In this document: positions 19,219 through 23,863 of the stretch, piece after piece | How the letters are laid out: each line of letters begins with the position of its first letter | Numbering within the stretch: the first letter of the stretch is position 1 | Assembly (NCBI GenBank): GCA_029564595.1 | Contig: JAKQPS010000113.1 | Coordinates: 220,227 to 284,226, forward strand | DNA length: 64,000 nt | Source of the DNA: a bacterium | Lineage (GTDB): Bacteria > UBP15 > UBA6099 | Reading direction: 5' to 3' | The notes under the pieces: generated by a model | The model's database searches: none | Seen by the model: only the letters and a program-made list of their open reading frames with translations | Told to the model about the DNA's origin: nothing | Translations under genes and position numbers: made by a program

Positions 19219-20694
19219 TTAACCGGTTTTTTCGGGATAACCTATATCAATCGTTTGCATAGTGGTCGCGCCGAAAATGTCCGTTATCATGGCGCATGCG
19301 GCCGCGCGGTCTCTTCCGGCTTCAATCGCTCTCGGCTCGGTGTGAAGCTTAATCGGTCTTTTCGAGCGTCCGCTTCTGAAATCCGTCCATTGATGATTGA
19401 ACGACTCTCCGCGAGTCCAATCGAAATCCACTGAAAAGAAATCCACCAAAGCCAACCTGTCCCTAACGTCCCCTGCCCTTGCTGATATCTCCGCCGGATA
19501 ATAATCCGTCAGAGCTACGGACACTTCGCCGGATCGTTCGCGATGCGCTTCAAGAGTTGCTTTTCCAGCCGCGACGGCAGGCCCTGCATCCTCTCCGGCC
19601 GTATACACGTCGAACGCGCGGAAAGCCTCTCCGGACGCCGCTCGCCCGCTCTGCTCGCTCATCATTCTTTTTCTCGTTGTGGCGACAGCCGCCGACCCGA
19701 TGTCGCACATTATCCATTTCCTTCCCAACTTCTCGGCTACAACTCCCGTCGTTCCGCTTCCGCAGAAGAAATCCGCGACCAGACTGTCAGGCTCGGTCGA
19801 AGACAGCATTATTCTTTCGATGAGTTTCTGGGGCTTCTGCGTCGCGTAGCCTGTCCTCTCCCGCGAACCGGATTGGAGGCTGTTGATATCCGTCCACCAG
19901 TCCTCAGGGATTTTTCCCTCATCGAGATAGTATTTGTAATACCGGGTTTCGCCCCGGCTGTTTTTCGTGCCGTAAACGAGCCTGAATTCCCTTCCGTCCG
20001 GGTCGCGCTCCAACCTTCCGCCGAAGCTTTCTCTTCCGGATTTCATAGGGGCGCGCGCGGCTCCCGCGTTGAAATAACGCTCGGATTCTTTTTTTGCGAA
20101 AGATAGTATCGTGTTGTGTTTTCTGCCGAACATGCGCTTTGATTTTGCGCCCTGCGAAAAACACCATATTATTTCGTTCACAAAGTTTCTTCTGCCGAAA
20201 ACCTCTTCGAGAACGAGGCGAATGTGAGCGGACGCCCGCCAGTCGGCATGAGCGTATATCGTCCCGCGCTCGCTTAAAAGCTTTTTCATAAGCAGCGCGC
20301 GCTCGTAAATCATTTGCAGATAAGCGTCCAGCCCGCCCGGCCAAACATCGCTGTAGTGTGGCGTTTCAACGCGCTTATCGCCTGTGTCTCCGAAATCAGA
20401 TTCGCCGGCGAACTCGTTTCCGGTAAAAAAAGGAGGATCGATATATATCAGGTCGATTTTCTCTGAATAATCCGACTCAAGCGCTTTCATCGCGCGCGCG
20501 TTGTCGCCTCGAATAAGCAAGTTCCTGAAATCATTATTTCGGCATTTTTCTGATTCGGATGAGCGCGGGAAGTCGGAAATTTCAATTTGCTTTAATGAAG
20601 AGTTTCCGTAGTCGCAGTCGGAGCGCTTGCCCGACCATTCAAGCCGGACATCTCCGTCAGCGGCATCTTTGCGGGCGCGTTTTTTTTCAGTCAT
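19219..20694 (-). CDS. Beta-class N4/N6 DNA methyltransferase, solitary
   Basis: 491 residues. The motif order is that of the beta class of amino-methyltransferases, as in type III Mod and several type II enzymes. Motif IV, IDPPFFTG (about residues 85-91), comes first. The target region with YKYYLDEGKIPEDWWTDI follows, then YATQKPQKLIERI and motif I ADFFCGSGTTGVVAEKLGR, which binds S-adenosylmethionine. The catalytic motif is DPPF, not the more common DPPY. A tail of about 130 residues of unknown role follows. No restriction enzyme or specificity gene is near, so it may be a regulatory orphan or lost its partner. The ATG at 20694 has no clear ribosome binding site. A longer open frame would run into the next gene. 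Confidence 0.85.
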   Translation of the reverse strand: MTEKKRARKDAADGDVRLEWSGKRSDCDYGNSSLKQIEISDFPRSSESEKCRNNDFRNLLIRGDNARAMKALESDYSEKIDLIYIDPPFFTGNEFAGESDFGDTGDKRVETPHYSDVWPGGLDAYLQMIYERALLMKKLLSERGTIYAHADWRASAHIRLVLEEVFGRRNFVNEIIWCFSQGAKSKRMFGRKHNTILSFAKKESERYFNAGAARAPMKSGRESFGGRLERDPDGREFRLVYGTKNSRGETRYYKYYLDEGKIPEDWWTDINSLQSGSRERTGYATQKPQKLIERIMLSSTEPDSLVADFFCGSGTTGVVAEKLGRKWIMCDIGSAAVATTRKRMMSEQSGRAASGEAFRAFDVYTAGEDAGPAVAAGKATLEAHRERSGEVSVALTDYYPAEISARAGDVRDRLALVDFFSVDFDWTRGESFNHQWTDFRSGRSKRPIKLHTEPRAIEAGRDRAAACAMITDIFGATTMQTIDIGYPEKTG

Positions 20695-20764: not shown

Positions 20765-23353
20765 CTATCGCAGCCCGGCAGCTTCGAAGAACGGGCCGTA
20801 CTTCCTGTCTTCGAGAAGAGTGTGGCTGACAAACCAGTTTTTGATAAAGTCCATGAATTCCGCAGCTTCCGACCAGTCGCCGGAGGAGAGCCGTTTCTTG
20901 AATTCGAGCAATTCCGCCAGAAGCCTGTCGTGTTCGCCCTTCTGTTTGTCGTAATCCGGGTATTCGTATTGCGACATCAAGGCTTCCTCGCGCTCGAAGT
21001 GAGAGCGAACCAATTCGATAAAAGAATCGAGCAACGGAAGGAATGAGGCGTTTTTCTCATCCGCCGCCGCCAGAAGTTCATTAGCCTTTGCGAACATGAC
21101 CCTGTGCTGTTCGTCGAGTTCAGAGACGTTCACTTTGTACTCTTTGCGCCATTCGAGATCGAATCTGGCGCTGAAAGTTTTCACGCGCCTCTCGTACGTC
21201 TCCTGAAGTTTCCAATAGACGATTGGAATGTTTTCCACGAGCGACACATCGATTTTTATCATGGAAGCGTCCGTCGCGGCGCGCGCTTTAAAAACAGACT
21301 GCTCGCCGAAAAGCGCGAACTCCGCCCCGACAAAGCCTCCGGGCCGAAGTCTCTCGATTATCCTTCGCCCTGAATAAAGATAAACTTCTCCGCTCGTAAG
21401 AATGTAAAGACCCGGCCAGTTCTTGATGGGAAGCTCCTCGCCTTTAGCGCATATCACGGTTTCCATTCCGCGAGCTATCCTGTTGTGCGTCGGGTACGAA
21501 ACCATTTCTCCGAACAGCCATGTGTTTTTAAGGAACTGCCTGTTGTAATGCAGTCGTCGTATCTCGTCTATGTAGCCGTTTCGTTTAGCGAACTCCATGT
21601 AAAAGTCCGAAGGCATAATAAGAGCCTTCACGTAGCTGACGGTTCTGTAGGTCGCGTTCGAAGGCTCCTTCATAACGCAAGACAACTCGCCCACCATCGC
21701 GCCTGCGGAAACCTGATTCCTCGTCCCGTTCTCCGAGTCGAGCATTTCCGCGACCCCCGACAGAATCAGATATATCCTGTCGGCGATCTCGCCTTTCTTC
21801 ACGAGTATCGATCCCGCGTTGATGTTTTCAATCGGGCAGTTCAAAAGCATCTCGATGTCGTGCCGGGGCGATTCCGGAAAATAGTCTCCGAGGAAGTCCA
21901 GCGCGCACTGGGCGCAATAGTTCTGACGGCCCGGAATCAGCACGTCAGTCATTCCGAACACGGCGTTCGCTCCGATTTCCTTTTGCGCGTCCGTCAGTTC
22001 GAGAGCGGTGTGGCTGAGGATTATCTTGTCAGATTCGTCGTCGATGAAATCTTCCGCGCGCCCGTGTATAAGTCCGCCTCCGATGTCGATCTTTTTCAGG
22101 TTCGTCTTCATCAGATACAGTTCTTTGACCTTGTCTTGGAACTCTTTCGAGACGCCGCTCTTATTCGGGTCGTCGGTGACCATTCTGCCGAGGACGTCGA
22201 ACGCGACAGTGTCCGCCCAGTGAGCGTATGTCCTGTAGCCGTCCCGCCACAAAGCCCTGAAAACCATCACGCTCGTCTCGACCGGGTGAGGAGAAAAGAG
22301 CGGCATGACTTCGAGTCCGTTGACGTTGTTCCACTTATCGAATTCGAGGTCGCGCACGTCGAAATACCTGTCGAAGCTTTTTTCCTCAATAGACATGAGA
22401 GCCGACAGTTTTTTGACCACTGACGCGCGTACGAGAGGCGTCGCGTAATACTTTATCCTGTGGTCGGAACGCACAAGAGACGTCAGCCCCGCGAAATGGT
22501 CGTCGTGCGCGTGAGTGTGAAATATCCCCTCGATCTCGCTCACGCCGATGCCTAGACATGTCAGGCTGTCAAGCACGTTCGGCCCGGCGTCTATCAGATA
22601 GACCCTGCCCTGAAAGGTTATCACGCTGGACATGCAGGGCCGGTTGATGTCCCAACCGTCGCCGTCGCCCGAATGAATTACGGAGAAATATTCGCGGTTG
22701 ATCGAGTGAAGCCCCATCATGTACGGAGCCTCGTAGCGCTCCCCCGGAGCCAGATTCAAATCGACCCTTTCCGATTCGCCGTTGTAGATGAATTCATAGT
22801 TGTTGAAACCGGCGCGGTGGACGATGACGCCGTCCCTTAGCGTCACATCCTCTTTGTCTACAATGCGCGTGTCGACGAGGTCTTCGGTGAGCCTGATGTC
22901 GTCGAACGCGAACCAGTTTTTAAGACGCATCATGTCTACGGCTTCCGATTCGGACACTCCGGCGGCCATGATTTCTTCTGCGCTGACAAGCCCGTAGTTG
23001 CCCCTGAATATGTATTCGCTCTGAGCGCGCGCCTGATCCGCTATCCCTATCAGCATCGGTTTTCTTCCCGTGTTGTTCGGATGATTGGGCAGAAGCATCC
23101 CCTGCCTGTAAAACATCTGAAGCACGGGGAACTCGGCCAGATTCGCGAAACTTCCGTTCTGCGCCGAAACATCGGAGAGGAGGATTGCGTTGGGGCCGGT
23201 CTCGTACCAGACCCCGTTTTTTTCGCGGCTCGATATCAGGCCGCGCTTCATCATGTGTTTCACGCTGTCCGCCGGACACCCGCAAAGTATCCGCATATCG
23301 ACTTCCGGAATTTCAATCCAGTATATCCCGGTCGCCACTTTAATCTTTTCCAT
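20765..23353 (-). CDS. Metallo-beta-lactamase fold, double cNMP-domain, hemerythrin protein
   Basis: 862 residues in four parts. Residues 1-200 are a novel N-terminal region starting MEKIKVATGIYWIEIPEVDMRILCGCP. Then comes a metallo-beta-lactamase domain with THAHDDH and downstream His/Asp residues for a dinuclear metal site. Two cNMP-binding beta-rolls follow (IENINAGSILVKKGEIADRIYLILSG... and the region ending GGFVGAEFALFGEQ). Last, about residues 735-862, is a bacteriohemerythrin (SELDEQH, SHFEREE, GEHDRL, SHTLLED). Six of the seven hemerythrin iron ligands are present. The position equal to His73 of Themiste hemerythrin is Gln. A GGGAGG box sits 10 bases before the ATG. It probably senses oxygen, iron or NO and a nucleotide, and acts through the hydrolase-like domain. 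Confidence 0.85.
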   Translation of the reverse strand: MEKIKVATGIYWIEIPEVDMRILCGCPADSVKHMMKRGLISSREKNGVWYETGPNAILLSDVSAQNGSFANLAEFPVLQMFYRQGMLLPNHPNNTGRKPMLIGIADQARAQSEYIFRGNYGLVSAEEIMAAGVSESEAVDMMRLKNWFAFDDIRLTEDLVDTRIVDKEDVTLRDGVIVHRAGFNNYEFIYNGESERVDLNLAPGERYEAPYMMGLHSINREYFSVIHSGDGDGWDINRPCMSSVITFQGRVYLIDAGPNVLDSLTCLGIGVSEIEGIFHTHAHDDHFAGLTSLVRSDHRIKYYATPLVRASVVKKLSALMSIEEKSFDRYFDVRDLEFDKWNNVNGLEVMPLFSPHPVETSVMVFRALWRDGYRTYAHWADTVAFDVLGRMVTDDPNKSGVSKEFQDKVKELYLMKTNLKKIDIGGGLIHGRAEDFIDDESDKIILSHTALELTDAQKEIGANAVFGMTDVLIPGRQNYCAQCALDFLGDYFPESPRHDIEMLLNCPIENINAGSILVKKGEIADRIYLILSGVAEMLDSENGTRNQVSAGAMVGELSCVMKEPSNATYRTVSYVKALIMPSDFYMEFAKRNGYIDEIRRLHYNRQFLKNTWLFGEMVSYPTHNRIARGMETVICAKGEELPIKNWPGLYILTSGEVYLYSGRRIIERLRPGGFVGAEFALFGEQSVFKARAATDASMIKIDVSLVENIPIVYWKLQETYERRVKTFSARFDLEWRKEYKVNVSELDEQHRVMFAKANELLAAADEKNASFLPLLDSFIELVRSHFEREEALMSQYEYPDYDKQKGEHDRLLAELLEFKKRLSSGDWSEAAEFMDFIKNWFVSHTLLEDRKYGPFFEAAGLR

Positions 23354-23536
23354 TCGGAACTGCCTCCCGCCCGGAAACATCCCGGTTCGCCAGCGCCGCG
23401 TTGGGCATATCCCGCTCTCCGCAGCTTAATCATGTTATCACAAAAATCACGCTCTAAAAAGCTGATATATGTTTCGCTCTCTATTTATCCCTCATACCGC
23501 TCAATGCCGCGCATGCCCTATTACGCTTTGCGCATT

Positions 23537-23863
23537 CTATTCGACGACTGGATCGTGCAACTCGAACGTGCCCACCTTCTTGATGGTCTTTAGAGATTTC
23601 GCCACCTTGTCGTTAGCGCGGACGATATACATAGTCTGATCCTGCATTTTGCACGCTTGGGACACATATAACATCGAACCAAGCCCGGATGAATCGATAA
23701 ACCTCAAATCGTCCATGTCGAGAACGACGTTTTTCCCTTTTCCCTTCACCCTTTCAGGCGTCTTAAGCATGAACTCCTGAGCGTCGATAAACATCAGTTC
23801 GCCTTTTAATTTCAACATGATTCCATTCTTTATGTTTTTTGCTTCCACAACCAGATCTCTCAT
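23537..23863 (-). CDS. STAS-domain anti-sigma-factor antagonist
   Basis: 108 residues of the SpoIIAA-like STAS fold. The switch Ser is in LRFIDSSGLGSMLYVS, with the flanking VVLDMDDL strand typical of antagonists. In such systems the unphosphorylated protein binds an anti-sigma kinase and frees a sigma factor or other partner. No anti-sigma kinase or PP2C phosphatase gene is present in the window. The ATG at 23863 has GGGGG 8 bases upstream. Its promoter region, shared with the divergent NifX/MinD cluster, carries tandem palindromes (23989-24021). Confidence 0.85.
   Translation of the reverse strand: MRDLVVEAKNIKNGIMLKLKGELMFIDAQEFMLKTPERVKGKGKNVVLDMDDLRFIDSSGLGSMLYVSQACKMQDQTMYIVRANDKVAKSLKTIKKVGTFELHDPVVE

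Follow-up and report, generated by a model that had tools for sequence, protein, structure and literature searches.

The window, by which we mean the whole 64,000-nucleotide stretch of DNA analysed here, carries a real gene on its minus strand: an 862-aa open reading frame plus stop at 20765-23353. On the plus strand of the same interval, the frame is broken by stops. ATG 23353 was preferred over ATG 23380 as the start because GGGAGG sits 9 nt upstream of 23353. The features of the gene and its upstream neighbour, all on the minus strand, are as follows.

20765-23353, minus strand: whole gene, encoding an N-terminal MBL-like domain, a putative catalytic MBL domain, CNB-A, CNB-B and hemerythrin (profile searches, AlphaFold2 model)
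23363-23368, minus strand: ribosome-binding site GGGAGG, 9 nt 5' of ATG 23353 (read from the sequence)
22688-23353, minus strand: N-terminal domain, aa 1-222, with an inactive-looking MBL-like fold that lacks HxHxDH (AlphaFold2 and Foldseek)
21914-22687, minus strand: putative catalytic MBL domain, aa 223-480, with ligands H281, H283, D285, H286, H356, D381 and H448 (Pfam, PDB profile matches, alignment)
21524-21913, minus strand: CNB-A, aa about 481-610, with Ser565 at the canonical phosphate-binding Arg position (Pfam, alignment)
21164-21523, minus strand: CNB-B, aa about 611-730, canonical Arg absent (Pfam, Foldseek, alignment)
20768-21163, minus strand: hemerythrin domain, aa 731-862 (Pfam, NCBIfam, PDB match)
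20942-20944, minus strand: CAG codon for Gln804, at hemerythrin ligand position 73 (alignment)
23537-23863, minus strand: gene for a STAS-domain protein, directly upstream with a gap of 183 bp (Pfam STAS)

Directly downstream, an N6/N4 DNA methylase gene (144 bits) occupies 19222-20694 of the minus strand.

Pfam models matched the 862-aa protein above their cut-offs: Lactamase_B_2 at residues 252-385 (34.5 bits), Lactamase_B at 238-295 (31.4 bits), cNMP_binding (PF00027) in two stretches that cover both CNB domains (79 bits, E = 2.6e-22) and Hemerythrin at 743-855 (54.9 bits). AlphaFold2 modelled the whole protein with a pLDDT of 89 and a pTM of 0.89. The initial annotation had described a four-part protein with an HTHAHDDH motif, two cNMP-fold domains and a C-terminal hemerythrin. 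All of these are present, with Pfam and NCBIfam scores over cut-offs, but a fifth conserved domain at residues 1-222 had been missed. The protein consists of five parts, in the order N-terminal domain, MBL, CNB-A, CNB-B, hemerythrin.

A probable tandem of MBL-fold domains

The HTHAHDDH motif spans residues 279-286. The seven MBL metal ligands, made up of HxHxDH and a downstream His, Asp and His, are invariant in all 22 family members aligned. When a family profile of residues 223-480 was compared with the PDB, Apyc1 was both the best and the longest match (1.7e-9), followed by arylsulfatase 8gyg, ELAC1 and RNase Z, mostly over shorter stretches. Apyc1 and related enzymes, which belong to the class II phosphodiesterases, form homodimers with an HxHxDH motif and two zinc ions (PMC9117128). 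Apyc1 and YhfI are the nearest solved structures to this domain and share its HxHxDH. In contrast to them, the window protein places two MBL-like units in one chain, the first of them inactive-looking, and adds regulatory domains. It also scores far under the gathering cut-off of the Apyc1 model (PF23023, 18.6 bits against 50) and far under that of RNase Z (TIGR02651, 41.7 bits against 292.95). Neither cut-off is reached and we therefore do not claim membership in either family. Judged from these profiles, the second MBL domain is probably a phosphodiesterase nearest the Apyc1/RNase Z branch, and its substrate is a guess from that branch of the fold.

Three candidate assignments were rejected. 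A role in tRNA 3' processing as RNase Z was dismissed on the TIGR02651 score and on the PxKxRN motif, which occurs in none of the 22 members. The flavodiiron partners suggested initially for a screen find no support either, since the family motif is HxHxDH and the diiron motif HxExDH is found in 0/22. A phage anti-Pycsar origin was also discarded, as the core has no phage match and the Apyc1 cut-off is not reached. A viral fold library searched with the N-terminal domain returned nothing significant, and plasmids gave matches to the hemerythrin domain only.

Residues 1-222 have no sequence match in Pfam, NCBIfam or the PDB. They are nevertheless strongly conserved across relatives, together with the MBL domain, and D61 and Q65 are invariant among the family members aligned. 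AlphaFold2 modelled this segment alone with a pLDDT of 89. In a Foldseek search of the PDB, every match in the credible range was an MBL-fold protein. Apyc1 ranked first (E = 1.8e-4, probability 1.00), with a modest TM-score of about 0.4. Profile-profile comparison of the N-terminal domain with the catalytic MBL domain found nothing, so the link between the two is one of fold. Given the modest TM-score and this negative comparison, the model makes it likely, but not proven, that residues 1-222 are an inactive MBL copy.

A comparable arrangement exists in long-form RNase Z, where an N-terminal MBL domain without a zinc site precedes the active MBL domain; bacterial RNase Z is of the short form only (PMC11649783). 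The window protein would resemble ELAC2 and Trz1 in having a probably non-catalytic N-terminal domain of this type, in our case by predicted fold. It differs from them in lacking PxKxRN, in carrying other extra domains and in being bacterial.

Regulatory domains and the ligand at position 73

In a Foldseek search with the whole model, the CNB region matched tandem CNB proteins, among them PKA regulatory subunits. The best match was a Trypanosoma cruzi PKA regulatory subunit that is bound to guanosine and independent of cAMP. At the phosphate-binding-cassette position of CNB-A, Arg is present in 0 of 19 members, and in CNB-B the canonical Arg is not conserved among members. Arg570 is conserved instead (18/19). 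In trypanosomatid PKA, loss of the canonical Arg goes with binding of a nucleoside instead of cAMP (PMC10959531). The window protein shares with those subunits the tandem CNB fold and the replaced Arg, but has no kinase context. With the canonical phosphate-binding Arg missing from both CNB domains, it is doubtful on sequence grounds that they bind cAMP in the ordinary way. The two regulatory cNMP domains of the initial annotation are thus upheld as folds, but without the canonical ligand Arg.

The hemerythrin domain scored 106.1 bits against the bacteriohemerythrin model NF033749 (cut-off 84) and 102.6 against TIGR02481 (cut-off 51.75), and its best PDB sequence match was McHr (4xpw). Six of the seven ligands are kept, namely H750 (position 25), H785 (54), E789 (58), H808 (77), H844 (101) and D849 (106). 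The fold and these six ligands are common to the bacteriohemerythrins McHr and DcrH-Hr. As first noted, the sole change is at position 73, which is Q804.

We compared 130 hemerythrin domains, non-redundant at <90% identity, from the window protein's family and from unrelated proteins; this census was drawn from top-scoring matches and is not a random survey. Position 73 is His in 119 domains, Gln in 8, and Met, Leu and Asn in one each. It therefore deviates from His in 11/130 domains, compared with one deviation in 780 sites when the other six ligands are taken together (Fisher P = 4e-9, indicative only, as related sequences are not independent). A tree built without column 73 requires at least seven changes between His and Gln, and is weakly resolved, with few columns and many unresolved forks. 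A further family member from SAR324 (L192) also has Gln at this ligand. When the window was compared with two close genomes, the hemerythrin domain had a dN/dS of 0.06-0.10; it is clearly constrained, though it changes faster than the remainder of the protein. The Gln is identical in three genomes of the window genus.

These data show that Gln73, presented initially as an oddity, is a recurrent variant under purifying selection with no sign of decay. The census, the counts of independent changes and the dN/dS speak against it as a mark of decay. A plainly degenerate domain, which the initial annotation had named as a refuting outcome, is likewise at odds with the dN/dS. Iron-ligand variation in hemerythrins has already been reported, with no detail in the main text (PMC4919030). 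Most hemerythrin-bearing family members have the canonical ligand set. In an order-mate of the window (L014:1477-4068) a different ligand is lost, His54 being replaced by Leu, while His73 is kept. This could mean that metal binding is relaxed in the clade of the window and L014. In a tandem hemerythrin protein of the window's family (L016), ligand 73 is Met in one copy and Leu in the other.

Distribution and genomic neighbourhoods of the family

The initial annotation knew of no described protein with this domain order. Searches found 11 non-redundant, full-length hemerythrin-bearing members, so the order is not unique. In the open-access literature we found no paper on the MBL-CNB-hemerythrin order and no description of the family, and we found no characterised enzyme belonging to it. 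The hemerythrin-bearing relatives come from the window's own candidate phylum (a search of 7 genomes), from Terasakiella and a further MAG labelled as alphaproteobacterial, from one small and one large phylum, and from SAR324. The parts are ordinary and the combination is new; the protein family is real and widespread.

Members without hemerythrin are commoner than those with it, and the domain is therefore not needed for the core function. A tree of the core places the window next to L014 (96/88 support) and requires at least three changes in the presence of hemerythrin. The ends of the protein are exchanged among relatives: a receiver (REC) domain is found in L181, a Zn_protease domain (PF05618) in L035, and no extra end in many. 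The core of N-terminal domain, MBL and two CNB domains is encoded by 43 of 52 SAR324 genomes (L186-L205, L212), including reduced genomes of 1.3-2.3 Mb, some of them incomplete. We took the phylum of these 52 genomes to be SAR324 because contigs are shared with named SAR324 records. This distribution suggests a near-core gene of unassigned role in SAR324. The same phylum also contains a divergent second subfamily (L206-L209), about 815 aa long. Its members align with the family profile over their N-terminal part and have HNHDDH and a CNB domain; MBL Pfam models fall below significance.

Neighbouring genes vary, and no operon partner is conserved across lineages. The common theme of the neighbourhoods is signalling. 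The STAS gene is also upstream in L003 and L004, which belong to the same genus as the window. Other relatives lie beside genes for response regulators, an RR-HD protein or a PAS histidine kinase with a receiver domain, a diguanylate cyclase (GGDEF) or a HAMP-SpoIIE phosphatase. In L181:1027-3678 and L183:2729-4630, the relative has an N-terminal receiver domain and the HAMP-SpoIIE phosphatase gene is directly upstream. These two neighbours, HAMP-SpoIIE next to the REC-bearing relative and STAS next to the window gene, hint at partner-switching signalling.

A proposed hemerythrin-regulated output enzyme and its alternatives

Our preferred reading, to which we give a probability of roughly 45%, is that the protein is a cytoplasmic signalling output enzyme of MBL phosphodiesterase type regulated by hemerythrin. 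The second MBL domain, with its complete dinuclear metal site, would hydrolyse a phosphodiester, most likely in a small nucleotide as suggested by the Apyc1/YhfI/class II phosphodiesterase/RNase Z branch. The N-terminal MBL-like domain, lacking the metal motif, may pack on the catalytic one and act as a pseudo-dimer partner within the same chain, in the manner of long-form RNase Z. A regulatory neck would be formed by the two CNB-fold domains in tandem. Because the canonical Arg is missing, this pair is less likely to be a cAMP receptor than a mechanical relay or a pocket whose ligand is uncharged or atypical. At the other end, four His and two carboxylates would hold the putative diiron site, where Gln804 replaces the third His of Fe1. 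The redox state of this site, or O2 or NO bound there, could then alter the CNB neck and with it the rate of the hydrolase.

We favour this reading because Apyc1 is the best PDB match of the 223-480 profile, whose metal ligands do not vary, and because the high-probability fold matches of the N-terminal domain are MBL proteins, with Apyc1 first. It is also favoured by a hemerythrin domain that exceeds curated cut-offs, is under purifying selection and keeps six ligands alongside a recurrent Gln73, by the interchange of sensory ends and the signalling genes adjoining relatives, and by a published precedent. That precedent, Bhr-HD-GYP of Ferrovum, is a hemerythrin-regulated c-di-GMP phosphodiesterase that works in the ferrous state and is inactive in the ferric state (PMC9388753). 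Both proteins join hemerythrin to a known or probable phosphodiesterase under proposed redox control, but the window protein has MBL instead of HD-GYP, a C-terminal hemerythrin, a CNB pair in between and Gln73 for His73. Counted against our reading are the Apyc1 and RNase Z scores under cut-off, the lack of a characterised member, the absence of hemerythrin from most members, the His54 to Leu change in L014 and the lack of an operon partner. The initial proposal that hemerythrin sensing controls a metallo-hydrolase through two domains fits the anatomy, the REC fusion in a relative and the neighbouring signalling genes, but its cNMP label holds for the fold only.

The alternatives concern different parts of the protein. 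The hemerythrin domain might no longer sense O2 and respond instead to NO, peroxide, nitrite or iron status, because Gln73 would reduce each iron to two His, the situation in YtfE/RIC. The remaining four His and two carboxylates presumably resemble the RIC site. A diiron centre persists in hemerythrin domains of P1B-5 ATPases in which the region of the third His is altered (H-HxxxE-HxE-HxxxxD) (PMC9388753). We regard this shift as somewhat unlikely, since Gln is able to ligate iron, O2 binds Fe2 (PMC9388753), where both His are kept, and most family members have the canonical set. A little less probable still is that the MBL domain is another hydrolase (a nuclease, sulfatase, lactonase or phosphonate-type enzyme) under the same CNB and hemerythrin control. 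The MBL superfamily is promiscuous and the second-tier PDB matches include arylsulfatase 8gyg, RNase J/TTHA0252, PhnP-family proteins and lactonases, but these are mostly shorter than the match to Apyc1.

Arg570 could act as an alternative anchor for an ordinary cyclic nucleotide in the CNB domains, in which case the protein would be a cNMP phosphodiesterase under feedback control. The conservation of Arg570, and a GAF-GAF-PAS-guanylate cyclase gene 2.3 kb downstream in L007, agree with this idea. We nonetheless consider it improbable, as the canonical Arg is missing from CNB-A in 19/19 and unconserved in CNB-B, and the closest fold match is guanosine-bound and cAMP-independent. Least probable is that the hemerythrin domain is a non-functional, decaying tail. 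Two different ligands are lost in sister lineages (Gln73 in the window genus, Leu54 in L014) and the domain changes more quickly than the other parts of the protein, but the low dN/dS, the Gln shared by three genomes, the six retained ligands and the concentration of deviations at position 73 all oppose decay.

More broadly, and only tentatively, these proteins may constitute an undescribed, widespread bacterial family: MBL phosphodiesterases that carry an inactive MBL copy inside the chain, as a counterpart to long-form RNase Z of independent origin, and that combine atypical CNB control with interchangeable sensory ends. Such enzymes would break down a second messenger when cued by O2/redox or by phosphorylation and would be near-universal in marine SAR324, with ligand 73 as a natural tuning position subject to repeated His-to-Gln change. 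There are few hemerythrin sensor enzymes, and according to a 2022 review Bhr-HD-GYP is the only sensor phosphodiesterase with a hemerythrin domain (PMC9388753); the window family would add a different catalytic fold. Its core is encoded by most SAR324 genomes, yet we found no description of it in the open-access literature. The family also provides a natural series of hemerythrin domains in which one iron ligand is either His or Gln against a shared protein background, which makes the role of that ligand directly testable.
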